From: Aestuariivirga sp. | GTDB taxonomy: Bacteria; Pseudomonadota; Alphaproteobacteria; Rhizobiales; Aestuariivirgaceae | Length of the DNA stretch: 64,000 nt | Reading direction: 5' to 3' | NCBI GenBank assembly: GCA_030680855.1 | Contig: JAUXUN010000082.1 | Span: 1 to 64,000 of the forward strand | In this document: positions 14,304-44,077 of the stretch, one piece after another | Layout: each line of letters opens with the position of its first letter | Numbering within the stretch: position 1 is the stretch's first letter | Made by a program: the position numbers and the translations under genes | The notes under the pieces: model-generated | Databases searched by the model: none | The model's input: the letters and a program-made list of their open reading frames with translations, nothing else | What the model was told of the DNA's origin: nothing

Positions 14304-14720
14304 ATGAAGGGTCTCATGCAGGACTGGCCTTTGCTGGTGCACCGTGTGCTTGATCATGCCGCGCGCTGGCACGGCGAGCAGGAAATCGTATCGCGGTCCG
14401 TCGAAGGCCCGATCCATCGCCAGACCTACCGCGACCTTGACCGCCGCGCGCGCGCCCTTGCAAGTGCCGCCAAGAAACACCTTAAGGCCAAGAAGGGCTC
14501 GGTCATCGCGACCATGGCGTGGAACGGCTATCGCCACATGGAAATCTGGTATGGCCTCATGGGCCTGGGTGCCGTGGTTCACACGCTGAATCCGCGCCTC
14601 TTTGCCGAGCAGCTGATCTACATAATCAACCACGCCGAAGATCAGTGGATATTCACGGACCTCAGCTTCGTGCCGATCTTCGAAAAGCTGCAGGATAAAT
14701 TGCCGAAGGTGAAAGGTTGA
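14304..14720 (+). pseudogene. Long-chain acyl-CoA synthetase, truncated by IS after 138 codons
   Basis: N-terminus of an ANL-superfamily fatty-acyl-CoA ligase, which would activate fatty acids for the adjacent beta-oxidation operon. Visible: QEIVSRSVEGPIHRQTYRDL, then VIATMAWNGYRHMEIWYGLM and GAVVHTLNPRLFAEQLIYII, all typical of the first 140 of about 540 residues. The ATP-binding P-loop and adenylation core are absent. The stop TGA (14718-14720) is the first three bases of the IS terminal repeat, so the IS itself ends the frame. GGAGGAAGAC before the ATG is a good ribosome site. The missing 3' part is not found on the other side of the IS. Confidence 0.85.
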
Positions 14721-14733
14721 CCTGCCATTGAAG
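14718..14733 (+). repeat. Left terminal inverted repeat of the IS
   Basis: TGACCTGCCATTGAAG, exactly complementary to 15971-15986. Its leading TGA terminates the truncated acyl-CoA synthetase frame. Confidence 0.93.
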
Positions 14734-14781
14734 ATTTCCTCCACGTAGATTTAGAGTCCGGCCCCGAAGAGGAGGCGGACG

Positions 14782-15048
14782 ATGAAGAGGAAGCGGTTCA
14801 CGGAAGAGCAGATCATCGGGATCCTGCGGGAGCATGAGGCGGGTGCCAAAACCGCTGACCTGGCCAGGAAGCACGGTCTTTCGGAAGCCACGCTGTATAA
14901 CTGGAAAGCCAAGTTTGGCGGCATGGACGTGTCGGACGCCAGGAAGCTGCGGGCTCTGGAGGAGGAGAACGGCAAGCTGAAGCGACTGCTTGCTGATGCC
15001 ATGCTGGATGCCTCGGCTCTGCGGGAACTTCTGGCAAAAAAATGGTAG
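14782..15048 (+). CDS. IS3-family transposase OrfA
   Basis: 88-residue DNA-binding subunit of the transposase. Helix-turn-helix of the transposase_8 type in residues 5-45 (FTEEQIIGILREHEAG, ADLARKHGLSEATLYNWK) followed by a leucine-rich coiled coil (RKLRALEEENGKLKRLLADA) used for multimerisation. It ends at TAG 15046-15048, overlapping the orfB start by 7 bp at the A7 tract, so an OrfAB fusion by -1 frameshift is expected. Confidence 0.92.
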   Translation: MKRKRFTEEQIIGILREHEAGAKTADLARKHGLSEATLYNWKAKFGGMDVSDARKLRALEEENGKLKRLLADAMLDASALRELLAKKW

Positions 15049-15968
15049 GGCCCGCCGCCAAGCGTGAGGCTGTCGCCTGTCTGAAGGAACAGTTCCAGAT
15101 GAGCGAGCGCCGGGCCTGTGAAGTGGTTGCTGCCGACCGCAAGATGGTTCGCTACCAATCACGACGGCCACCCGAGACAGAACTGCGGGCCAGATTGCGG
15201 GAACTTGCCAATGAGCGTCGAAGGTTCGGCTACCGCCGCCTGTTCATCATGCTGCGGCGTGAAGGCGAGCCGTCTGGTATCACCCGCATCTACCGGCTCT
15301 ACCGGGAAGAAGGCCTAGGTGTGCGAAGGCGCAAGGGTCGCAAACGGGCGATCGGCGTACGGGCACCCATTCTTGTCGAAGTAAGGCCCAATGCCCGCTG
15401 GTCACTCGACTTTGTGCATGACCAGATGGCCAATGGCCGGAGGTTCCGGGTTCTGAACATCACGGATGACGTCACCCATGAATGCCTGGGCGCCATTCCC
15501 GACACATCGATCTCGGGTCACCGGGTGACGCGGGAGCTGACAGCCCTTATCGAACGCAGAGGCAAACCCGGGATGATTGTTTCAGATAACGGCACGGAGC
15601 TCACCTCCCACGCCATCTTCGCATGGGCCAGGGATTACGGGATTGACTGGCATTACATTGCTCCCGGCAGGCCCATGCAGAACGGCTATGTCGAAAGCTT
15701 CAATGGCAAGATGCGCGACGAGCTCCTCAATGAGACCCTGTTCTTCAGTCTCGACCAGGCCAGGACAGTCATTGCCGAATGGGTTGAAGACTACAATACC
15801 ACACGGCCACACTCGGCCCTGGCCTACCAAACACCGGCAGCCTTTGCTGCCAAGCTCACCGCAACAGGCCTGCACGCTGCGCTCACTGACGGCTCCGCGC
15901 TCCGGCCTGTTGCTCAACCTGCCCAAACGGGCATAAAACTGCCGGAGGCTCTAAAAGCTACTGGATGA
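15042..15968 (+). CDS. IS3-family transposase OrfB (DDE integrase domain)
   Basis: 308-residue catalytic subunit with the rve integrase core. DDE triad visible: Asp in RWSLDFVHDQM near residue 125, Asp in IVSDNGTEL near 185, and Glu in GYVESFNGKMRDELLNE near 220. N-terminal HTH_21-like region (RRRFGYRRLFIML). The frame is full-length and no residue of the triad is lost, so the element may still be mobile. It can start at the ATG inside the A7 tract or be made as an OrfAB fusion. Confidence 0.93.
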   Translation: MVGPAAKREAVACLKEQFQMSERRACEVVAADRKMVRYQSRRPPETELRARLRELANERRRFGYRRLFIMLRREGEPSGITRIYRLYREEGLGVRRRKGRKRAIGVRAPILVEVRPNARWSLDFVHDQMANGRRFRVLNITDDVTHECLGAIPDTSISGHRVTRELTALIERRGKPGMIVSDNGTELTSHAIFAWARDYGIDWHYIAPGRPMQNGYVESFNGKMRDELLNETLFFSLDQARTVIAEWVEDYNTTRPHSALAYQTPAAFAAKLTATGLHAALTDGSALRPVAQPAQTGIKLPEALKATG

Positions 15969-17149
15969 AACTTCAATGGCAGGTCAGCACCAATGGGATT
16001 CAAGCATTTCGCCAAGCGCTCGGAAATCTGGTCAGCAACTTTAATCGCTGGATCCGCATCAAGGTGAGCGTATCTGGCAGTCGTTTGGGGTTGGGAGTGC
16101 CCTAGCAGTTTTCCAATGATGGGCAGCCCCTGCCCCATGGCAACTCCGTGGGAGGCAAAAGTATGCCGAAGATCATGAATACGGACGTCTTCTAAATCAG
16201 CATCTTTCCGTATGCGGTGCCAGGGCTTTTGCATCTCGATCAGGTACTGGCCATCAATCTGTCCGGTTACGACATAGGGGTTGTTGTTGACTTTGATTGT
16301 GCGTCGGAACTCGTCCACTGCGGCTTGGCCGAGATAGATCGTCTTCTTTCCAGACTTTGAATCCGGCAAGTGGATCAACTTCGACTTGAGATCGACATAA
16401 GCCCATTTGAGTTTTTGGATTTCACTGAGGCGACAGCCGGTGAGAATGAGCAACCGGATGCAGGTTACCGCAGATGGCGTATCTAATTCAGCGATCCGTA
16501 ACGCCTCGCCAAGTCGGTCAAGTTCTTGGTGGGACAAGAAGCGTTCGCGTTTTTGCTCCTTGAACTTCTTTACACCCCGGCAGGGATTTGTATTGGCCTC
16601 CCGCAAGTTCCACGCTTCGGCTTGGGCAAACATGACGGAGAGAACCCCAAGTGTCCTATTGGCCTGATACGGAATATTTCGTAGCCGATGGTGAAGTGCG
16701 GTGATATCGGTGCGCTCGACAGATATGACTTTTGTTGTTCCAATTTCGGGAACAATGAATATATCCACACAGCGCTTGTATTCTTTGGCCGTGCTGGCCT
16801 TGCAGTGAAACGGCACATATTCAGCCATAAAGCGATCAGCCAATGCCCTGACTGAAACAGACTGCCGGATTGCATCCTTGGCCTCATTTGGATTGTTGCC
16901 AATAGCAAGTTGGGCAATGATCTCCTTGGCCTTGGTCCTGGCAAGTTCTGGCGACACAGCTCCATGCGGACCAATCGTAAACCGCCGCAACACACCGCGA
17001 TGCCGCATCATGACAAAATAGGTTTTTCGGCCCGATGTTCGAACCCGGACACCAAATCCTTTGAGATCGTCATCAAAGAAGTCGAGGTCTTTTTCAGCTG
17101 GCATAAGGGCATCAACTTGCCGCTTTGATATGTGTAGTATGCGTTTCAC
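15914..17149 (-). CDS. int: Tyrosine recombinase/integrase, C-terminal tail replaced by IS sequence
   Basis: P4-like integrase of 411 residues: N-terminal DUF4102-type domain (FFDDDLKGFGVRVRTSGRKT), SAM-like core-binding domain, then the catalytic domain with Arg in LTGCRLSEIQKLKW near residue 240, HDLRHTFASHG near 325, LLGHSQPQTTARYAHLD (His and the nucleophile Tyr) near 350. All catalytic residues are present. The last ~23 residues are encoded by the right end of the IS, so the native C-terminus after LAKCLNP has been lost. It starts about 180 bp from the tRNA-fMet fragment, the expected arrangement for an island integrase beside its attachment site. It may still be active. Confidence 0.88.
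   Translation of the reverse strand: MKRILHISKRQVDALMPAEKDLDFFDDDLKGFGVRVRTSGRKTYFVMMRHRGVLRRFTIGPHGAVSPELARTKAKEIIAQLAIGNNPNEAKDAIRQSVSVRALADRFMAEYVPFHCKASTAKEYKRCVDIFIVPEIGTTKVISVERTDITALHHRLRNIPYQANRTLGVLSVMFAQAEAWNLREANTNPCRGVKKFKEQKRERFLSHQELDRLGEALRIAELDTPSAVTCIRLLILTGCRLSEIQKLKWAYVDLKSKLIHLPDSKSGKKTIYLGQAAVDEFRRTIKVNNNPYVVTGQIDGQYLIEMQKPWHRIRKDADLEDVRIHDLRHTFASHGVAMGQGLPIIGKLLGHSQPQTTARYAHLDADPAIKVADQISERLAKCLNPIGADLPLKFHPVAFRASGSFMPVWAG
15971..15986 (-). repeat. Right terminal inverted repeat of the IS
   Basis: CTTCAATGGCAGGTCA, the exact reverse complement of 14718-14733. The integrase frame on the minus strand reads through this end into the IS. Confidence 0.93.
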
Positions 17150-17181
17150 GGGATTTCACTCGTTTCACTGAAGTTTGTTCC

Positions 17182-17200
17182 GGGTAACATATGGGTAACA
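17182..17200 (+). repeat. Two direct GGGTAACA repeats upstream of the integrase
   Basis: GGGTAACA at 17182-17189 and again at 17193-17200, 11 bp apart and thus one helical turn. Short direct repeats between an integrase gene and its attachment site are often Int arm-type or Xis sites; this role is inferred from position only. Confidence 0.45.
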
Positions 17201-17332
17201 GTTGGGCGTGAAAACCCCAGCACCCGAGTGCAAGAAACCGCTTCATGAAATCCATTTTACCCCAAAGAAATCATATTGTTAGAGCAAAGCGGGGGAAAAC
17301 GCAGGAGCACCGCAGATGGGGTATCGAACGTT

Positions 17333-17377
17333 CTCATAACCTGAAGGTCGTCAGTTCAAATCTGGCTCCCGCAACCA
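17333..17377 (+). other. attR-like fragment: 3' part of tRNA-fMet from the anticodon loop to CCA
   Basis: 45 bp beginning CTCATAACCTGAAGGTCG and ending CCCGCAACCA match the 3' portion of bacterial initiator tRNA (anticodon CAT, T-loop TTCAAAT, encoded CCA). The 5' side does not pair: the five bases before the loop (ACGTT) cannot form an anticodon stem with CCTGA, and no acceptor 5' strand GCGGGA follows the right spacing. So this is not a functional tRNA gene but the reconstituted 3' end left by site-specific integration into tRNA-fMet. Confidence 0.8.
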
Positions 17378-17381
17378 TAAA

Positions 17382-17413
17382 AAACCCGTTATCTCAATGA
17401 GATAGCGGGGTTT
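17382..17413 (+). terminator. Rho-independent terminator of the former tRNA-fMet gene
   Basis: Hairpin with arms AAACCCGTTATCTC (17382-17395) and GAGATAGCGGGGTTT (17399-17413), loop AAT, one bulge and one G-T pair, then TTCCTT. It begins a few bases after the CCA end and presumably belonged to the tRNA gene whose 3' end is here. Confidence 0.75.
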
Positions 17414-17511
17414 CCTTATGCGTTTCGTGTTTGTAGCAAACCTGCCAAGCCATTGCCACCGGAAATCTGCTTCAAGGTCTCAGGCCCATTTGTCCATCAA
17501 GAGCAACGAAG

Positions 17512-20301
17512 TCACTTTGGCTGCAACTTGATTGCAGGCTTGGAACCGCTGAGTATGTAGAGAATAGCCTCAAGAATGATGCCATTGGTGTTGACATCAG
17601 TGTGATCCGTTGCCTTGAATGAGCTCTCATAAATCCCGGAAGCAAAGCCAATGCCGTTCGTGAGCCCGACAGTGCGTGCAGTGTCATAAAGTTTTCTGGA
17701 ATACTGGCCAGGACGCGCCGCCAGCCAGAGAAAGCAGCCTTTGGTGCTGATGGTCCTAAAGCTTTGCTTTCGTTTTTCACCAAGTGACTCCGAGTCAGGA
17801 GGCAAGTCAACCTCCCACGACCCACCATCCGGTTTCAACTGGTAGCCCTGATAGGTGAACCACGGAGCACGGTCAGCCGGCCCTTCCGAGGCGCAAGTCA
17901 ATATGCCCGTTTCCTTGTGACGCGCAATCTGGGCCGCGAGGAGAAGGTCAGCCGCCAGCGTACCATGATCTGTTGAGCCAACTTCAATCTGTTCCGTCGT
18001 GATCGGTTCGGTGGCGATTCGACCATATTCTTGCAATTCTTCAATAAAGCGGAGAGTGGCGTCCATGTTCGCCAGTGGATTGGCCTCTGTATAAATCGGC
18101 AGGACCGGATATCCCCACAGCCGATACCCCTGTGCGGCGTATTGCGCATATGAGCTCTTGTGGACCGAGGTCGCCTTGCGGCCAAGGAGATCGTGCATTC
18201 TTCCTTCAATTATTGAAGCCCCCAAGTCCCAAGAGTTGACGATTTTTGAAATCCTGAATTCCTGGTTTGTCACCTGGTCGAGTACCTTGAGCGCAATCAA
18301 GAGGCGTCCGGTGTCTGCCGAGTCAAATCCTCCCCTCGCACCACCGGTGCCCTTGAGCGGATGTTCGGTCGCCGGCAAGAATGATGACCGCCTCTTATAC
18401 CGTGCGGTTCTGACAAAGCGCAGGATACTCGTGATTGCTTCTTCAAACCGCTGTTGAGAGATGAACCCCAGCCGTTGGGCGGAGATCGTTGCCATGATCA
18501 TCGACGCGACGTCCCACATTGTCGCAAATGGGTAACCCTTTATCTGGTTGCCTTCCAGCCAGCCTGTGGCGGGGGCCAGACCCTTGTATTTTTTCTGCCA
18601 CCTGTCGAAATACTGCCACGCCACTGCGGCAGCCTTCACAAGCTCATCATGGCTGGGCAGGCTGCTTTCTCCCTCCAGCCGGTCGTTTACGCCGACCTCG
18701 TATCGTGCGGTCTGCACCCGTTCCAAAGCTGGGATTACCGGCATCACCTTATCGTAATACTGCCGAAAGTTGGTTAGTTGTGTTTTGCGCTCCTGGGACA
18801 AGAGGTCAAGGGTATCAAACACCGCACGAAATTTGCTGGCGCTATTCATTGTTTGCGGATGGAGCATCAACACGGCATCGTTGCGCGAACCTATGAAACG
18901 CGCGATGTCGGCCGGTTCGTGGTATGCAATATCATTGCCCCAACTCTTTTCCGGACCAATGGTATGAGAGGCATGAAGGATGCCAAATTCATCAAGCCCC
19001 CAAAACCAGTTGAAATTTCCATGCTCGGAACTAAACACTTTCCCGCCGTACTGCTGATAGGCCCTCAGCGTGGCGGCATCGTAGACGTTGTTGGGCGGGA
19101 TGTAGGTCAAAGGCTCGCGGCCGGAAACATCTTGCAGGCTCGTTATGCCATACCCGATGACTTCTCTATTGAAGTCATCAGTCTGGCCAAGGAGCTCATT
19201 TGGCAAATGGGCTTGTCCATGTGTGGCAAAGTCGTAGATTGGGTTTTCCGACAGCTTGCGCAAATAATTCTTGCTGAGGTCATCATTGGCCAGTGGAACC
19301 ACACCACCCGGAATCACAGCTTGGGAGATTGGTATTCCCCGCGACAGCAGTTCAGCCACCACCAGCTTGTGATTGGAATCGGTGGCATTGGAGAGCCGGA
19401 AGTCATCCACGCGAACGATGACGTAACGCGCTGGGCCCGGCATGGACAGTTTGTACAGTTCATAAGGCAAGATCGAATAAACGGTTTGGGCGGCCCATAG
19501 GGATGCCAGATGCCGCGCCAGCTGCGTTGCGTAGGAGGCGATGTCGGCGCTGCGACTGGACCCAAGGTCGGAAAGTGAAAATGTTACGACGATCGGTTCG
19601 GGTGATCGGCTTTCGAATTGTATTGCAGCGGCAATTTTCGCCGGTGAGCGAGGCGATGATGTCAGCGTGCCGGCAAATGTCTTGGCAAGGCCGCTTGAGG
19701 TCTTCCAATAGCCGCGACTGGCCGGCACGGTTTCATTGGCTGTTTGCGGTAAGTGAATGACCGTACGGATACCGGCGGCGCGCAGGCCCGACAGGTCTTC
19801 AAGCGACCCCACGAGCGTGCGCGTGGTAAGCGTGGACGCCATGACGACCGGCTGCACATAACAGTCCCCCATCGCGTTGATTGCCTTCGTCAGGGCGGCT
19901 TGGCTGTTGCTCGCCTGACGTAATTGCCCATAGGGGGACAATGCAGGCAAATCGCGAACATCGACCGCCAATTCGAGCTGCGCTGGAAATTTGTCCAGCG
20001 CATCACGCAACGACCTTGATATCGCATCCAGGGGCGACATAGCCGTGCCATTGGCGAGAAACGGATTGACGCTGAGCACCACGGCGAGGCCGGCTCTAAC
20101 AAAAGGTTCGGTAACCGAGGTCAGCAGGGCGGGCGATGTAGCCGGGTCAATGCCAGTGATTACCAAGAGCAGGGCGGGCGCTGACTCCCCCGCCCGGCCG
20201 GGTGAAGCCGCAAATCCACTGGCAAGAACTGGCAGGGCGAGGCCGCCAAGCAAAACCGACCGGCGCGAGAGCCCATTATGGGAACCTGACCTTCCACTCA
20301 T
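17512..20301 (-). CDS. Exported DUF2334-type deacetylase-like / DUF3131 multidomain protein
   Basis: 929 residues. N-terminus has a Tat-type signal (SRRSVLLGGLALPVLASG). The middle (about residues 310-500) resembles polysaccharide deacetylases of the DUF2334/NodB-like type: YVIVRVDDFRL (metal Asp pair), DFATHGQAHLP (metal His) and LMLHPQTMN. The last third (from about 545) resembles DUF3131: VAWQYFDRWQKKYKGLAP, then ARGGFDSADTGRLLIALKVL, a helical glycosidase-like module. The ATG overlaps the stop of the GT2 gene by 4 bp (ATGA), so synthesis and processing are coupled. I infer periplasmic trimming or deacetylation of the polymer made by the GT2; enzymatic activity is not proven by the sequence. 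Confidence 0.72.
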   Translation of the reverse strand: MSGRSGSHNGLSRRSVLLGGLALPVLASGFAASPGRAGESAPALLLVITGIDPATSPALLTSVTEPFVRAGLAVVLSVNPFLANGTAMSPLDAISRSLRDALDKFPAQLELAVDVRDLPALSPYGQLRQASNSQAALTKAINAMGDCYVQPVVMASTLTTRTLVGSLEDLSGLRAAGIRTVIHLPQTANETVPASRGYWKTSSGLAKTFAGTLTSSPRSPAKIAAAIQFESRSPEPIVVTFSLSDLGSSRSADIASYATQLARHLASLWAAQTVYSILPYELYKLSMPGPARYVIVRVDDFRLSNATDSNHKLVVAELLSRGIPISQAVIPGGVVPLANDDLSKNYLRKLSENPIYDFATHGQAHLPNELLGQTDDFNREVIGYGITSLQDVSGREPLTYIPPNNVYDAATLRAYQQYGGKVFSSEHGNFNWFWGLDEFGILHASHTIGPEKSWGNDIAYHEPADIARFIGSRNDAVLMLHPQTMNSASKFRAVFDTLDLLSQERKTQLTNFRQYYDKVMPVIPALERVQTARYEVGVNDRLEGESSLPSHDELVKAAAVAWQYFDRWQKKYKGLAPATGWLEGNQIKGYPFATMWDVASMIMATISAQRLGFISQQRFEEAITSILRFVRTARYKRRSSFLPATEHPLKGTGGARGGFDSADTGRLLIALKVLDQVTNQEFRISKIVNSWDLGASIIEGRMHDLLGRKATSVHKSSYAQYAAQGYRLWGYPVLPIYTEANPLANMDATLRFIEELQEYGRIATEPITTEQIEVGSTDHGTLAADLLLAAQIARHKETGILTCASEGPADRAPWFTYQGYQLKPDGGSWEVDLPPDSESLGEKRKQSFRTISTKGCFLWLAARPGQYSRKLYDTARTVGLTNGIGFASGIYESSFKATDHTDVNTNGIILEAILYILSGSKPAIKLQPK

Positions 20302-21572
20302 GCCGATGGTTCCTTGTGAAGGCTATCGAAGCGGCGCTCAGGGCTGATCCAACGACCGTCCGACTTGGCCGAAAAGGATTTTATGAAGGCGGCCATGAAA
20401 AGAGAGGCATCCAGAATACGGATAAACGGAAATACCGGTGCGTAGAGAAACAACGATAGCCGCCGCTCGATTATGGCCGTGACCGCCGTCAAAGCGAAGT
20501 CGATTGCGATAAAGGCAAGAAAAACATCAACAGGCGACACCTGGCGAATTGCCAGATCTGACATCGAAAACGCAACACTCTCCCACCCCGTCAAAAGGTA
20601 GGCAAGAACGAAAAATGGCAAGGCAATCAGGTAGGCGCTGAAAAGGGCAAGTTCGAGGAGCAGAGGCAAGAGTGCAAGCCAAAACCGGCTGGGCCAGAAT
20701 CCGTTACGCAAAACGGTTTGCCAGAAGCCAAGATACCACCGCATTACCTGCTTTCTGTAGTCGCCAAGCCCAGCAGGATCTTCCGAAGTGCACCTCACTT
20801 TAGGTGAATAGGCAATGCGCCCGAGGCGTTTGCGGTGGACCTCAAAAGTCATGTTGAAATCTTCGATGACGAGTCCTGGGGCAGCAATGTCGATCTCCCG
20901 TAAGGCCGTTGTGCGGTATATGCTGGCAAAGCCCGGTGCGATATAGCTTACGTTAACGACGCGCCAACTGTGGCCATACTGAAATGCGGCCTGGAGCAAC
21001 CGATAAAGGCGGGTGCGATAGGCGGTGAAAATCAGACTTGGCGTCAGCCAGCGCTGCGCGGGCCAACGTGACAGAACATGACCCGCAATGGCCGCGACCT
21101 TAGGGTCTCGCAACATAGGCAGGGAGTGCCTGAAGTATCCAGGGTCAATCTCCGAGTCGGCGTCGAGAATGAGAACCGCTTTAAAGCGATTGCAAAGGTC
21201 ATTGGCGCGAATGGCATGGGTAATTGCGTTGGCCTTTCCGCCGTTTGGCCAAATGTCATCGACATGGCAGCCAGCAGCTCGGGCTATGGCAACTGTCTGA
21301 TCACGCGAACCATCGCTTGCAACATAGACCTGACTGAGGGGAATGACCACCTGCAGCGCGCGCAGGCACTTCGGCAGGGCCGTCTCCTCATTGTGCGCGG
21401 GAATGACAACTGCCACATTCGCCAGAGTTACTGGATCATGAACAGAGATCACGCCCAAACGGCACTCGCTTATATAACGGAGCAGCCCGACAAAGCCCCA
21501 GAACAGGACATTCACTCCGATAGCTGAACCCATCGCGAGAAGCATCAGGTTGTTGATGGTTTGATCGTGCAT
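20298..21572 (-). CDS. Membrane glycosyltransferase family 2 (polysaccharide synthase)
   Basis: 424 residues. TM helix at residues 8-30, cytosolic GT-A domain with VVIPAHNEETALPKCL, SDGSRDQT, ILDADSEIDPG (metal-binding DxD), VIEDFNMTFE (catalytic Asp region) and QVMRW (the Q/RxxRW motif of processive synthases), then three or more C-terminal TM segments between about 290 and 400. This is the plan of processive synthases such as PgaC, HasA and cellulose synthase. Gene order places it between a UDP-sugar epimerase/decarboxylase and a deacetylase-like protein. The sugar is unknown. Confidence 0.85.
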   Translation of the reverse strand: MHDQTINNLMLLAMGSAIGVNVLFWGFVGLLRYISECRLGVISVHDPVTLANVAVVIPAHNEETALPKCLRALQVVIPLSQVYVASDGSRDQTVAIARAAGCHVDDIWPNGGKANAITHAIRANDLCNRFKAVLILDADSEIDPGYFRHSLPMLRDPKVAAIAGHVLSRWPAQRWLTPSLIFTAYRTRLYRLLQAAFQYGHSWRVVNVSYIAPGFASIYRTTALREIDIAAPGLVIEDFNMTFEVHRKRLGRIAYSPKVRCTSEDPAGLGDYRKQVMRWYLGFWQTVLRNGFWPSRFWLALLPLLLELALFSAYLIALPFFVLAYLLTGWESVAFSMSDLAIRQVSPVDVFLAFIAIDFALTAVTAIIERRLSLFLYAPVFPFIRILDASLFMAAFIKSFSAKSDGRWISPERRFDSLHKEPSA

Positions 21573-21624
21573 GCAGAGCTATCTCCAGGACCAAATTTAG
21601 CTTTTGGAGAGGGTCAAGCAATTT

Positions 21625-22656
21625 TCATGCCGCGACAGAGTGGTCTGTCCGCGTAGTTGCCGGATTCTGTCCGTTTTGCCGCGCCACAGAATACCCAGGC
21701 GTCATCTGCATATGTTTGATGCTCTGTTTCAGACCAGTTGCAAGTGATGTTTTTGGTGCCCAACCCAGTGCCCTGATTTTTCGCGTATCTGGCAAACGGC
21801 GATCATGATCAGCAATAAAGTGTGGTTTGCGGACCACCTCGGACCTGCTTCCCGTAGCCCGCAGGATCTCTGCGGCGAGTTCGGCGATGGTGATTTCGGT
21901 TTCACCGCCAATGTTATAAACTTCTCCCTCGCAATGTTGATTCATAACCAGTGCGAAGCCATCGATGAGATCGCGCACATTAAGGAAGGAACGAGTCTGC
22001 GACCCGTCGCCATACATTGTTAAAGGGAGCTGGTTTAGAGCACGCGTCAGCATCTGTGGTATGACCCTCTGGTCATTTTTCGACATAAAGGGGCCGTAGG
22101 TATTGAAGATTCGGACGATGCGCGCATCGACGCCGTAACGCCGGGCATAATAGGCAGTAGCCGCCTCGCCAAATCTTTTGCCCTCCTCGTATGGGCTGCG
22201 CAAACCTACTGGGTCCACGTTCCCTGAATAATCCTCAGACTGCGGAAATTTCTCTGGATTGCCATAAACCTCGGCGGTGCTTGCAAATAAATATCGGGCC
22301 CGTGACTGCTCTGCCACGCGCAGCAGGTTGAGCGTCCCGGTGGAAGAGGCAATCATCATCTCCTCGCCTAGCACCGCTATGTTGGGAACGCCGGTGGGAC
22401 ATGCGAGATTGTAAATTTCGCTGTAGCGCTCGCGCTGCAATCGTGATGCAATGCCGGTATCCGCGATGTCGCCGTGGATGAACCTGAAGTCCTGGTTCGT
22501 GAGCAGCGGAGCAAGATTGGCCGATTCTCCGGTTATGAGTGAATCAACACAGTCGACTTTGTGCCCTTGGGTCAGGCATTCCCGCACGAGGTTGCTGCCG
22601 ACGAAGCCTGCCCCGCCTGCAATCAAGATCTTCTTACGACGCGATGTATTGCGCAT
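21625..22656 (-). CDS. NAD-dependent epimerase/dehydratase, UDP-glucuronate decarboxylase-like
   Basis: Extended SDR of 343 residues that would interconvert a nucleotide sugar. NAD motif ILIAGGAGFVGSNLVRE at residues 10-26, catalytic Ser/Thr region FASTAEVYGNPE, catalytic YxxxK in SPYEEGKR near 160, and RIFNTYGPFM. VCGDI-like HGDIAD and the NTYGP pattern are closest to UDP-xylose synthase/UDP-glucuronate decarboxylases. The start at 22656 (MRNTSRR) lacks a clear ribosome site; an ATG 15 codons upstream is also possible. Paired with a divergent nucleotide-sugar dehydrogenase that could supply its UDP-uronic acid substrate. Confidence 0.8.
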   Translation of the reverse strand: MRNTSRRKKILIAGGAGFVGSNLVRECLTQGHKVDCVDSLITGESANLAPLLTNQDFRFIHGDIADTGIASRLQRERYSEIYNLACPTGVPNIAVLGEEMMIASSTGTLNLLRVAEQSRARYLFASTAEVYGNPEKFPQSEDYSGNVDPVGLRSPYEEGKRFGEAATAYYARRYGVDARIVRIFNTYGPFMSKNDQRVIPQMLTRALNQLPLTMYGDGSQTRSFLNVRDLIDGFALVMNQHCEGEVYNIGGETEITIAELAAEILRATGSRSEVVRKPHFIADHDRRLPDTRKIRALGWAPKTSLATGLKQSIKHMQMTPGYSVARQNGQNPATTRTDHSVAA

Positions 22657-22925
22657 TTTTTTACCATCGTTAGCCGGGAGAGGGCCATATCCCGGGCACA
22701 AGTCGCATCTGCCTGCCAGTTATCCAATTTGGTAAATGCAAGTCAATTTTTAACTACCGGATTAGTGAATCATTAAGGTTAATCGAGCGTCCGCCTGATG
22801 TATGCCGCGCCTCCTCCGGCCCCGGTGCGGATATTGCATGTTTTTCGCCGAGCCACGGCGCCAGGGCCATACCAGGGCACCGGGCTGTATTGGAATGGGC
22901 CACGGGGGTCGAAGGAGAAACATTG

Positions 22926-24263
22926 ATGCTGGCGCTCGCAGAATTTACCAAACTCAAGCAACTGATTGAATCCCGCAAAGCTACGATTGGCGTATGCGGT
23001 TTGGGTTATGTTGGTTTGCCACTCGCCGTTGCGACCAGCCAGGCCGGATTCAAGGTTTTGGGCTTTGACATCGATGAATCCAAAATGATTCAGGTAAACA
23101 TGGGACAGTCCTATCTTGGTTCGGTTTCTTCGGATGCCCTTGTGCCGCTGGTCAAAACGAAAAGGCTTCGTGTCACCAACAACTTCAAGAAGCTTGCCGC
23201 CTGTGACGTCATTATCATATGTGTCCCCACGCCTCTCACCGTGAACCGCGAGCCGGATCTGTCCTATGTTCAACGGACAGCCAAGGCGATTGCAGGCTGT
23301 CTTCGTTTGGGACAGTTGGTGGTGTTGGAGTCCACTTCATACCCAGGGACAACCAGCCATGTTGTGAAACCCATTTTGCTGCAGACCGGGCTTATTGCCG
23401 GGCAAGACTTCTTCCTGGGGTTCTCGCCCGAACGCGAGGATCCTGGCAACATTGACTTTGCCACGGCCACCATTCCAAAAATTGTAGCCGGTGAGGGTGC
23501 GGAGGCAGGCGAGTTGACAGCCCTGTTCTACAAGTCGGTTGTTGACCGGGTTGTCGTCGTTAGTTCTAACGAAACTGCCGAGGCCGTTAAGATTACCGAG
23601 AATGTGTTCCGCGCGGTCAACATTGCCTTGGTGAATGAGCTAAAAGTCATTTTCGCTGCAATGGATATCGACATTTGGGAAGTCATTGAGGCGGCCAAAA
23701 CGAAGCCTTTTGGGTTTATGCCTTTCTATCCCGGTCCAGGTCTTGGAGGCCATTGTATTCCCATTGACCCATTCTATCTCGCTTGGAAGGCCAGAGAGTT
23801 TGGAGTTCCTACCCGCTTCATCGAATTGGCTGGAGAAATCAACACGGCAATGCCGCACTATGTGATAAATCGCCTGGTCGAAACACTCGATGGCAGATGC
23901 GCGAAGACTTTGAGTGCTGCACGTATCCTGATCCTGGGTGTGGCCTACAAGAAAAACGTCTCCGATATTCGGGAAAGCCCTGCCCTCAAGTTGATGGAAC
24001 TCTTGGAAAAGCGGGGAGCGAAGGTCGATTTTCACGATCCTCACGTCGATGAGATGCCCAAGACACGCGAGCATCCTGATTTTACAGGGCGGAGATCGGT
24101 GCCATTTGGCTCCCGCAGCATTCGTGCTTACGATGCGGTGGTAGTTGTGACTGATCATGACTGCATTGAGTATCAGTATCTGGAAAAGGCCAAGATTGTT
24201 GTCGACACGCGCAATGCATGTGCCAAGCGAGGCTTGAGTCTGGCTAATGTCGTTAAGGCCTGA
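22926..24263 (+). CDS. UDP-glucose/GDP-mannose-family nucleotide-sugar 6-dehydrogenase
   Basis: 445 residues; oxidises the C6 alcohol of a nucleotide sugar to a uronic acid with two NAD+. N-terminal GVCGLGYVGLPLAVATSQAG, middle LESTSYPGTT and GFSPEREDPGN, dimer helix AVKITENVFRAVNIALVNEL, catalytic Cys in PGPGLGGHCIPIDPFYL near residue 280, and C-terminal domain ILILGVAYKKNVSDIRESP. The GHCIPIDP variant is typical of the UDP-HexNAc dehydrogenases (WbpA/TviB/WecC side). GAAGGAGA sits 7 bp before the chosen ATG. It is divergent from the epimerase gene across a 269-bp gap. Confidence 0.88.
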   Translation: MLALAEFTKLKQLIESRKATIGVCGLGYVGLPLAVATSQAGFKVLGFDIDESKMIQVNMGQSYLGSVSSDALVPLVKTKRLRVTNNFKKLAACDVIIICVPTPLTVNREPDLSYVQRTAKAIAGCLRLGQLVVLESTSYPGTTSHVVKPILLQTGLIAGQDFFLGFSPEREDPGNIDFATATIPKIVAGEGAEAGELTALFYKSVVDRVVVVSSNETAEAVKITENVFRAVNIALVNELKVIFAAMDIDIWEVIEAAKTKPFGFMPFYPGPGLGGHCIPIDPFYLAWKAREFGVPTRFIELAGEINTAMPHYVINRLVETLDGRCAKTLSAARILILGVAYKKNVSDIRESPALKLMELLEKRGAKVDFHDPHVDEMPKTREHPDFTGRRSVPFGSRSIRAYDAVVVVTDHDCIEYQYLEKAKIVVDTRNACAKRGLSLANVVKA

Positions 24264-27996: not shown

Positions 27997-29298
27997 ATGA
28001 GTAACACTGCTGAATTTGGCGCCTCCAAGCCGGACTACTTCCATGCTGAAGCTCTGGAAGTGGTGCTGAAATCGCTCCCTAAAATCCATCTCAACCCGGG
28101 CGAAATTCTGGTACAGCAGGGCGAGGCCAGCGAAGCTGCGTACTTTCTTGATCAGGGAACCGTGAGTGTCAATGCCGAAACACTCTTTGGTTCGGTGCCG
28201 TTGGCGACGGTTCACGCCCCCCAGCTTGTCGGTGAAATTGGCGTCCTTGCCGATCTCCCCCGCACTGCAACAATCAAGGCCGTAACGTCCTCGACTGTGT
28301 ATCGCATCAGCCGCTCCGAGCTTCATGAAATTGCCCGGAAAGCCCCGGATTTGCTGCTGTTCATCATTGGCCAGTTGGGACGCCAGCTCGATGCCGTGAA
28401 CCGCGCCGTCAGCCTCTACACCAACGCGCTGGCGGCCCTTGAGAAGCGCGAATTTGATTCGCGAATTCTGGAGCAGTTGGAAAATCCGCCGCCCCAGCTG
28501 GCGGAATTTTCCGCCGCCTTCCACCGTTTCTCCAGTCAGATTCTGGACAAGCGGCCCCAGCACGATGAACTGGCAAGTGCCGCCATCATCCAGCAGTCGT
28601 TCCTTCCGAAAGCCTCGAACCTGGCGGCAATCGAAGGGGTTCTTGAACTCCACGCCGAAATGCGCCCCGCACGCGAAGTGGGCGGCGATTTCTACGACTT
28701 CTTCATGCTGGACGCGGACCATCTCGCGATTGCAATCGGCGATATCTGCGGCAAGGGCATTGCGGCGAGCCTGTTCATGGCTGTGGTGGTCACCGTCCTG
28801 CGCACCGCCGCCCATGAGGAAAAGGACGTGGCCTCCACAATCGCACGGGCCAATGCCATTCTCTGCCGGAACAACGCGTCATCAATGTTCGCCACAACCT
28901 TTTATGCCGCCTTGAACTTGCGCAGCGGGGTTCTTGAATATTGCAACTGCGGCCACAACGCTCCCTTCCAAATTCTCTCCTCAGGAGAAACCCGCAGCTT
29001 CCCGGCCACCGGATTGCCGCTGGCGCTTTATGCGGACCGAATCCCGGCCATGGCCCGTATAACGCTCAACCATTCCGATACCCTTGTTCTCTTCACCGAT
29101 GGCGTTACCGAAGCCATGAATCTCTCCCAGGAAGAGCTTGGCGAGGTTGCATTCATCGAAACACTCGTCAGCTCACATGACAGGCCCGTGGCCGAAATTG
29201 TTTCACGGATTTTCTCGACCGTCGATTCCTTCGCCCAAGGAGCGGAGCAGACCGATGACATCACCTGCATCGCGATCCGGCGCCGGCCTTCCATTTGA
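27997..29298 (+). CDS. Cyclic-nucleotide-binding domain fused to PP2C/SpoIIE phosphatase
   Basis: 433 residues. Residues 15-130 form a cNMP-binding fold with a well-kept phosphate-binding cassette, VGEIGVLADLPRTAT, including the Arg that contacts cyclic phosphate. A helical linker (to about 200) is followed by a SpoIIE/RsbU phosphatase: MRPAREVGGDFYDFFMLD, AIAIGDICGKGIAASLFM, and VLFTDGVTEAMN with the metal Asp residues present, then EQTDDITCIAI. RsbU-type phosphatases dephosphorylate STAS antagonists. With the cyclase upstream this predicts cAMP-gated dephosphorylation of the STAS protein. Starts 30 bp after the kinase gene. Confidence 0.9.
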   Translation: MSNTAEFGASKPDYFHAEALEVVLKSLPKIHLNPGEILVQQGEASEAAYFLDQGTVSVNAETLFGSVPLATVHAPQLVGEIGVLADLPRTATIKAVTSSTVYRISRSELHEIARKAPDLLLFIIGQLGRQLDAVNRAVSLYTNALAALEKREFDSRILEQLENPPPQLAEFSAAFHRFSSQILDKRPQHDELASAAIIQQSFLPKASNLAAIEGVLELHAEMRPAREVGGDFYDFFMLDADHLAIAIGDICGKGIAASLFMAVVVTVLRTAAHEEKDVASTIARANAILCRNNASSMFATTFYAALNLRSGVLEYCNCGHNAPFQILSSGETRSFPATGLPLALYADRIPAMARITLNHSDTLVLFTDGVTEAMNLSQEELGEVAFIETLVSSHDRPVAEIVSRIFSTVDSFAQGAEQTDDITCIAIRRRPSI

Positions 29299-36051: not shown

Positions 36052-37764
36052 TCAGAACAGGAAATAGCGCTGCGCCATTGGCAGCACGGTTGCAGGTTCA
36101 CAGGTGAGAAGCTCGCCATCGGCGCGCACTTCATAGGTTTCCGGATTCACCTCTATCTTCGGCATCTCGCCGTTATGCACCATGGAGGATTTCGAAATGG
36201 TGCCCCGCGTGTTGAGAACCGCAACCAGGCTCTTGTCCACGTCGAGTTTTTTCTCCAGCCCCTTGGCCAGCGAAGCCGCCGACACAAAGGTCACGGCCGA
36301 GCGAGCCAGGGATTTTCCAAAGCTCGCAAACATCGGGCGGTAATGCACCGGCTGCGGCGTCGGGATCGATGCATTGGGATCGCCCATGGGAGCCGCCGCA
36401 ATTGAACCGCCAAGCAGGACCAGATCTGGCTTCACGCCGAAAAAGGCAGGCGACCACAACACCAGATCGGCCCGCTTGCCCGCTTCAATGGAACCCACAT
36501 GATGCGCAATGCCCTGGGCGATAGCCGGATTGATCGTGTATTTTGCAATGTAGCGCTTCACCCGGAAGTTGTCATTCTGGCTTTTATCTTCAGCGAGCCG
36601 CCCGCGCTGCACCCGCATCTTGTGCGCAGTCTGCCAGGTGCGGATGATCACCTCGCCCACCCGCCCCATGGCCTGGCTGTCCGACGACATCATGGAGAAC
36701 ACCCCAAGATCATGGAGAATGTCTTCCGCCGCAATGGTTTCCTTCCGGATGCGGCTTTCGGCGAAGGCGATATCTTCAGGAATGCGCGGATTGAGATGGT
36801 GGCACACCATCAGCATGTCGAGATGTTCAGCCACCGTGTTGACCGTGTAAGGCCGCGTGGGGTTTGTTGATGACGGCAGCACATTGGGCAGGCCAGCGAT
36901 GCGGATGATGTCCGGCGCATGGCCGCCGCCCGCCCCTTCCGTATGGAAGGCGTGAATGGTGCGGCCCTTGAAGGCGGCAATCGTGGCTTCCACAAAGCCG
37001 GATTCATTCAGTGTGTCCGTATGCAGCCCCACCTGCACATCAAAGCGGTCCGCCACCGCAAGGCAGCAATCGATGGTGGCCGGCGTCGTGCCCCAATCCT
37101 CATGCAGCTTGAGCCCGCAGGCCCCGGCGAGAATTTGCTCCTCAAGCGCGGCGGGAAGTGAAGCATTGCCCTTGCCCATGAAACCAAGGTTCATCGGGAA
37201 GGCGTCCGCCGCTTCAATCATCCGCGCCAGATGCCAGGGGCCGGGCGTGCAGGTCGTGGCTTTCGTGCCCGTTGCCGGTCCCGTGCCGCCGCCAATCATG
37301 GTGGTGATGCCCGAGTTCAGCGCCTCGTCGATCTGCTGGGGTGCTACGAAATGGATATGGACATCCAGGCCGCCGGCGGTAAGGATTTTGCCTTCCCCGG
37401 CAATGATCTCCGTGCCCGGCCCGATGATGATGCTGACACCCGTTTGCGTGTCGGGGTTGCCCGCCTTGCCTATGCCGGCGATGCGCCCGTCCTTCAGGCC
37501 CAAATCCGCCTTCACAATGCCCCAATGATCGATGATGAGCGCATTGGTGATCACCGTATCAACCGCCCCCGCCGCCCGCGTGACCTGGCTTTGCCCCATC
37601 CCATCCCTGATGACCTTGCCGCCGCCGAAAGTCACTTCCTCGCCATGCACCGTGAAATCGCGCTCGACTTCAACGAAGAGTTCCGTATCCGCCAGACGCA
37701 CCTTGTCGCCCACCGTGGGGCCGAACATGGCGGCATAGCTGGCGCGCGGCTGTTTGGTCGCCAT
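36052..37764 (-). CDS. ureC: Urease alpha subunit UreC
   Basis: 570 residues; catalytic subunit hydrolysing urea to ammonia and carbamate at a dinuclear nickel site. Recognisable are [12 protein letters not shown] (nickel His pair), GLKLHEDWG (carbamylated Lys), AGGGHAPDI and [20 protein letters not shown] (mobile flap with the catalytic His). All expected residues appear. ATG shares one base with the ureB stop (TGATG). Confidence 0.97.
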
Positions 37765-43154: not shown

Positions 43155-43258
43155 CTTCTGCGAATTTTCCGCTATTGATCGCCGCAGGGGAAAGCGATCT
43201 CCCCTCAAGGCGACATGCCCAAGAATCGCGTCCCATTAACATTTAAGAGGGCGCAAGC

Positions 43259-44077
43259 ATGTCCACACCATACTCGATCAAATCCGATAAACTCGCACGT
43301 CTCATTGGCACTCCTTCAGCACCCGTCATCGTCGATGTCCGCACACCGGAAGACTTTGACGCCGATCCCCGCCTCATTCCCGGCGCTTTGAAGACAAGTC
43401 ACCAGACAGTTTCCGAATGGGGCAAGGCCCTTGCCGGAAAATCCGTCATTGCTGTCTGCCATCACGGGGCAAAGCTGAGCGAAGGAACCACCGCGTGGCT
43501 GCGCCAGCTCGGGGCCGATGCCGTGGCGCTCGAAGGCGGTTTCGTGGAGTGGGAGGCGGCAAAGCTGCCGCTTGTTCCCGTGGCTAAACTCCCCGAGCGT
43601 GATGCCGGGGGCCGCACCGTTTGGGTGACCCGCGCCCGGCCCAAGATCGACCGCATCGCCTGCCCCTGGCTCATCCGGCGCTTTGTTGATCCTGCCGCCG
43701 TATTTCTCTTCGTGGCTCCGCAGGAGGTGGCGGCCGTCGCCGACCGATTCAATGCCACGGCCTTCGACATCGAGAACACCCACTGGAGCCACCGGGGCGA
43801 ACTCTGCACCTTCGATGTGATGGTGGAGGAGTTTGGCCTCGGCACCGAAGCGCTGCGGCGTCTGGCAACGATCGTCCGCGGCGCCGATACGGCGCGGCCC
43901 GATTTGGCGCCGGAAGCGGCAGGCCTTCTCGCCGCCTCGCTTGGACTCTCGCGCATGTATGCCGATGACCTCGAGCAGCTTGAAGCCGGCATGCTGCTCT
44001 ATGACGCCTTCTACCGCTGGTGCCGGGATGCAACGGAGGAAACCCACAATTGGCCCACCAACAAGGTGAAGCCGTGA
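43259..44077 (+). CDS. chrB: Rhodanese - ChrB (chromate resistance) fusion protein
   Basis: 272 residues. N-terminal rhodanese domain: VIVDVRTPEDFDADPRLIPG, then VIAVCHHGAKLSEGTTAWLR with the active-site Cys, and LEGGFVEWEAAKLP. From about residue 120 a ChrB C-terminal domain (TVWVTRARPKIDRIACPWLI, then FDIENTHWSHRGELCTFDVM). ChrB proteins sense or help reduce chromate. The stop overlaps the GTG start of chrA by 4 bp, so the two act together. Confidence 0.87.
   Translation: MSTPYSIKSDKLARLIGTPSAPVIVDVRTPEDFDADPRLIPGALKTSHQTVSEWGKALAGKSVIAVCHHGAKLSEGTTAWLRQLGADAVALEGGFVEWEAAKLPLVPVAKLPERDAGGRTVWVTRARPKIDRIACPWLIRRFVDPAAVFLFVAPQEVAAVADRFNATAFDIENTHWSHRGELCTFDVMVEEFGLGTEALRRLATIVRGADTARPDLAPEAAGLLAASLGLSRMYADDLEQLEAGMLLYDAFYRWCRDATEETHNWPTNKVKP

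Follow-up and report, generated by a model that had tools for sequence, protein, structure and literature searches.

Separated attL and attR ends of an element integrated in tRNA-fMet in an Aestuariivirga genome, and an IS3-family element at one of the resulting joints

Genomic islands, ICEs and prophages are known at the 3′ ends of tRNA genes. A tripartite ICE is defined by three integrases with three att pairs, and the authors who described one in Mesorhizobium, in the portion of the article drawn on here (PMC5882170), model a split chromosome if one att pair whose attL and attR lie apart in the chromosome recombines first. IS copies that lack target duplications have been documented at large deletions and rearrangements. 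In the parts used here of the study by Ngan et al. 2024 (PMC11708052), all 14 deletion-linked IS movements from three LTEE populations were of IS150 and occurred without target duplications, and they could be explained as adjacent deletions. For other cases, those authors invoked recombination of one IS copy with another or proposed that an IS had inserted at a break. The locus described here, from a draft Aestuariivirga genome, resembles each of these systems in part.

The stretch analysed, hereafter the window, comprises 64 000 nucleotides (C66:1-64000) of a draft assembly of 3.73 Mb in 85 contigs. Its leftmost part encodes a TonB-dependent receptor together with an ABC transporter and looks like a haem-uptake locus (the substrate being a guess); the relative G023 shares it at 84 %, as expected of backbone. 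To its right lies a fatty-acid locus encoding an acyl-CoA dehydrogenase, a 3-hydroxyacyl-CoA dehydrogenase and a thiolase. Membership of this fatty-acid locus in the integrated island was considered and rejected, short of formal exclusion, since the relative G026 shares it at 82–86 %, in the manner of backbone. The next gene encodes an acyl-CoA synthetase, of which the 5′ part of 138 codons is present on the plus strand (14304..14717) before an IS interrupts it; the product of the resulting ORF (14304-14720, 138 aa) covers just positions 1–136 of the 544-position NF004674 model.

G026 carries a whole homologue of the synthetase (545 aa, 93 % identity across the 138 residues), followed by a P-type ATPase. 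A sequence-only reading of the window had suggested looking in close relatives for an intact synthetase followed by tRNA-fMet and an island; the intact gene was recovered, with a different gene next to it, and the tRNA-fMet locus is unbroken in G023, G009 and G026. The remainder of the synthetase was not found in its own assembly, where a profile search returned 13 matches, all to other ligases apart from the N-terminal piece itself, and a DNA search returned, within the missing part, a sole match of 66 bp at 77 % to a paralogue on C16. A ligase fragment on C37 was considered as the missing half and rejected at 28 % identity. In another relative (G034:C95:4062-14676), a synthetase gene that is intact and a 3′ fragment of tRNA-fMet share one orientation and are separated by 9 kb that include a serine recombinase gene and tRNA-Gln/tRNA-Pro, a proximity that may or may not be due to chance.

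The interrupting element (14718..15986, plus strand, 1269 bp) is complete and is classed in the IS3 family on the basis of its proteins and ends. Its OrfA (14782..15048, plus strand) contains the helix–turn–helix domain HTH_Tnp_1 (PF01527), while OrfB (15042..15968, plus strand) contains the rve catalytic core, scores 231.5 bits against NF033516 (cut-off, 160) and has a DDE triad at D123, D182 and E218, with the D-35-E spacing seen in the IS3 family. The terminal inverted repeats are of the TG...CA type and identical over the first 16 terminal nucleotides, the extent to which their earlier description as perfect holds. The flanks, GGT and GCA, lack the short target duplication expected of a simple insertion, in agreement with that reading; such a duplication belongs to the insertion site and disappears once a joint arises at the IS. 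The recommended search for a second copy revealed no other full one in the assembly, but a partial, degenerate copy on C37, and recombination between IS copies is consequently not visible. With one full and one partial copy remaining, adjacent deletion, recombination between IS copies and insertion into a break are indistinguishable, and any of them may fit the window joint.

Immediately beyond the IS, on the minus strand, lies a tyrosine integrase gene (15987..17149) with Arm-DNA-bind_3 and Phage_integrase domains. Its reading frame continues for 24 residues into the IS, to 15914; the product lacks approximately nine C-terminal residues, the G003 homologue (79–80 % identical) being longer by that amount, and retains the catalytic motifs TGCR, HDLRH, LGHS and TARYAH. 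Between the integrase and the tRNA fragment that it adjoins there is a 16-nt site, GTAACATATGGGTAAC (17184..17199, plus strand), which recurs with one mismatch at C25:27642, approximately 310 nt past the tRNA core on that contig. This arrangement is what would be expected of arm-type sites, and we infer that function for it. A weaker match, with three mismatches, is also present at window position 18521, and the arms of the G003 element contain no match within three mismatches.

Related integrases were observed in two other settings. At G003:C23:213422-214842, on a 227-kb contig of another species, the integrase adjoins a tRNA-fMet core and a terminator of the type found on C25, while the tRNA-fMet gene of that genome, on C8, looks unoccupied; the G003:C23 site is attP-like and lies inside a large contig. 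On G036:C129, a 63 % identical integrase with one internal TAG is preceded by approximately 18 nt of tRNA-fMet core, as judged by eye, and then by different sequence, which perhaps represents a secondary-site insertion.

The fragment next to the integrase (17333..17377, plus strand) is the 3′ part of tRNA-fMet from the anticodon loop to CCA, and it is followed by the terminator native to the tRNA-fMet locus (17378..17416, plus strand). Absence of an intact tRNA-fMet, as previously claimed, is correct for the window, in which ARAGORN found no tRNA, and incorrect for the genome. The Rfam tRNA model marked 45 places in the genome, 43 of them over the cut-off, and ARAGORN read a tRNA at 43 of the 45. 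Three of these tRNAs have a CAT anticodon; judged by eye from their sequences, one, C25:27253-27329, is an initiator, and the others look like elongator Met and Ile2. The proposed count of tRNA-fMet genes therefore yields one intact initiator on C25 and no second copy in the assembly. The fragment in the window is identical to the 3′ part of this gene (C25:27285-27329) at 45 of 45 positions. The C25 gene is followed by an element-side terminator and the arm-type site. C25 thus carries the attL, and the window fragment is the attR, of one insertion; the fragment previously called attR-like is a genuine attR.

The flanks of the two sites reconstitute one locus. Left of the tRNA, C25 matches G023 (88 %), G009 (83 %) and G026 (82 %), and the match ends at most 8 nt from the 3′ end of the tRNA. 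In these three relatives, the intact tRNA is followed by a terminator of the window type. Among 60 relatives, 54 had a tRNA-fMet match, and 29 loci with intact tRNAs were scored for their terminators. Two offered too little sequence beyond the tRNA and were set aside; of the other 27, 11 had the window type, defined by an identity of at least 0.8, and none had the C25 type. Elsewhere among the tRNA-fMet cores read, the C25 type was observed only on G003:C23, beside the 79 % identical integrase. Grafting the right side of the window onto the C25 tRNA raises the 40-nt identity to G023, G009 and G026 from 0.62–0.70 to 0.80–0.85. Further to the right, the window from 24336 onward (plus strand) is backbone common to the same three genomes, traced to 37300, the end of the searched stretch, and continuing beyond it. 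One contig of G023 contains the tRNA, the left flank and, at its end 5.8 kb away, the first 96 bp of this right-hand backbone, although close to the end of G023:C66 there is another copy of the 96 bp, similar but not identical; G023:C14 and G023:C66 likewise show similar, non-identical copies and no exact overlap.

The two sites accordingly show an integrase next to one of them, a direct repeat over the tRNA 3′ end with the intact tRNA at the other, and native outer flanks (82–88 % on the left; on the right, the terminator and the sequence from 24336 onward, partly on the 96 bp). They do not bound one contiguous element, as C25 and C66 each run into backbone, and the att pair is that of a dismantled element rather than an intact island.

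The segment between attR and the shared backbone (17512-24263) contains a polysaccharide-type cluster (DUF3131 protein, glycosyltransferase, epimerase and UDP-sugar dehydrogenase). The DUF3131 protein has no homologue in the 60 relatives at an E-value of 1e-50, and the cluster forms another variable segment at this site, in addition to the element. Rfam matches were also recorded further along the window. The 5_ureB_sRNA match (37323-37612, 103.9 bits) probably reflects coding similarity rather than an RNA gene, because it lies within the urease alpha-subunit gene (36052-37764, minus strand); a chrB-a RNA motif was found at 43182-43261 (70.1 bits).

The sequence-only reading had explained the window by one deletion between the synthetase and the integrase, which removed the synthetase 3′ end, the intact tRNA-fMet and nearly all of the element. 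Its anatomy of the window was confirmed (synthetase cut after codon 138, IS, truncated integrase, tRNA-fMet 3′ fragment and terminator), and the evidence supports its view that this IS-marked end has lost the 3′ half of the synthetase as well as almost the entire element. The tRNA, however, is not lost, since the sole initiator tRNA is intact on C25 and bears the matching attL. To retain a single deletion, the C25 gene would have to be a second copy; many relatives do have more than one tRNA-fMet match, although many of these are partial, and one contig of G034 has both a synthetase and a tRNA-fMet fragment. Against this, G023, G009 and G026 each have the C25 left flank and the window terminator on either side of a single locus, and the terminator and arm site of the element side are present on C25. 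This explanation is very improbable and is largely refuted by the attL on C25; one deletion cannot account for both ends, because the backbone around attL now differs from that around attR. The same reading held that recovery of the missing synthetase half and the intact tRNA at another IS copy would indicate translocation or inversion. The tRNA was indeed found elsewhere, although no IS copy accompanies it, and no search recovered the synthetase half.

The new neighbours of attL point to a second breakpoint. To the right of attL, C25 contains a region encoding MTTB, an FMN oxidoreductase and an S15 peptidase, which corresponds to G023:C2 backbone at 88 %. The homology begins in patches at C25:28050 and becomes continuous at 29171, which leaves at most about 0.7 kb of element at the attL end. 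No element body remains at either end, no IS was recognized at the C25 joint, and the sequence at this joint, C25:27667-28050, had no match among the sequences compared. In G023, the mttB region has other left neighbours, the counterparts of which are located on C34 of the present genome (88 %, with a 4.4-kb unmatched stretch). There they stop in a porin-like gene: on the reverse strand of C34 (11551-13524), a different IS3-type element with rve domains, flanked by AAT and CGC, cuts this gene 259 bp from its 3′ end, and 471 bp follow the IS to the contig end. Exact 30-mer overlaps of the C66 and C25 ends were sought in 830 kb of the genome, these two contigs included, and the only one connects the start of C25 to C12. 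Three ancestral connections that are kept in relatives, one at the tRNA locus, one in the synthetase and one in the C25 backbone, are all broken here.

It is likely that at least two rearrangements dismantled the integrated element in this lineage and that the window joint represents one of them; a smaller number would not suffice, given that attL adjoins one foreign backbone and attR another. The evidence that would favour a single reciprocal exchange instead, such as an inversion between the element and a synthetase–mttB interval that made both joints together, comes from G028 and G001, in which approximately 10–15 kb separate the synthetase from the mttB block and the two are oriented as such an exchange requires; in the present genome, each of the two adjoins one end of the element. 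Yet G023 is closer by DNA identity here (88 % versus 71–72 %) and has other left neighbours at its mttB block, those neighbours lie on C34 with an IS-marked break of their own, and in G026 the synthetase is followed by the P-type ATPase. A single exchange is thus quite unlikely. That either joint, at the IS or on C25, is an assembly or binning chimera of two unrelated places is also unlikely: a draft of 85 contigs and repeat-type sequence at the joint would allow it, whereas the IS is the only full copy, no contig was shown to end in it, the other synthetase half would be expected on another contig and was not found, and the IS-free joint at attL independently reveals a broken element.

According to the account with at least two rearrangements, an integrase-bearing element would have inserted into the tRNA-fMet gene, generating attL (the intact tRNA with the element terminator and arm, on C25) and attR (window 17333-17416). 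In one rearrangement, the attL end would have been joined, within approximately 0.7 kb, to the mttB/transporter region from elsewhere; in the other, the attR end would have come to adjoin the truncated synthetase gene, with the IS3-family element between them. Both the 3′ half of that gene and the body of the element would have been lost from these places. The IS presumably took part, whether by adjacent deletion, recombination between its copies or insertion at a break, and the order of events is likewise a matter of inference. Inversion, translocation and stepwise deletion are indistinguishable, because the draft leaves the orientation and distance of C25, C66 and C34 unfixed. The parts are standard and the process is ordinary genome reshuffling, which calls for no new mechanism. 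If the integrase is active, recombination between attL and attR would excise a large piece of the chromosome or invert it, in line with the model for the tripartite ICE; we doubt strongly that, given such activity, the IS cut at the integrase C-terminus was selected because it disarmed the enzyme and did not arise by accident. The locus provides a worked case of an integrated element dismantled around an essential tRNA, in which attR seen alone can mislead and its partner attL shows that the tRNA was kept.

The locus shares with elements at tRNA 3′ ends an arm-binding tyrosine integrase, a core running from the anticodon loop to CCA, an intact tRNA at one end and a 3′ fragment at the other, and an exchanged terminator; unlike them, its two ends lie in unrelated backbone with almost no element body beside them. 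As in the cases of Ngan et al. covered by the portion of the paper used here (PMC11708052), a complete IS3-family element without target duplication joins non-adjacent sequences, although an ancestor is not available here and the steps cannot be traced. The tripartite ICE of Mesorhizobium ciceri, as presented in the part of the article considered (PMC5882170), likewise has the attL and attR of one integrase separated in the chromosome, such that their recombination would reshape it. This likeness would favour a parting of the present sites by site-specific recombination at other att sites; nevertheless, the window joint lies at an IS rather than an att site and no further att joint was recognized, which makes that origin extremely improbable. 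In contrast to the tripartite ICE, the separation observed here runs through an IS and an unmarked breakpoint.
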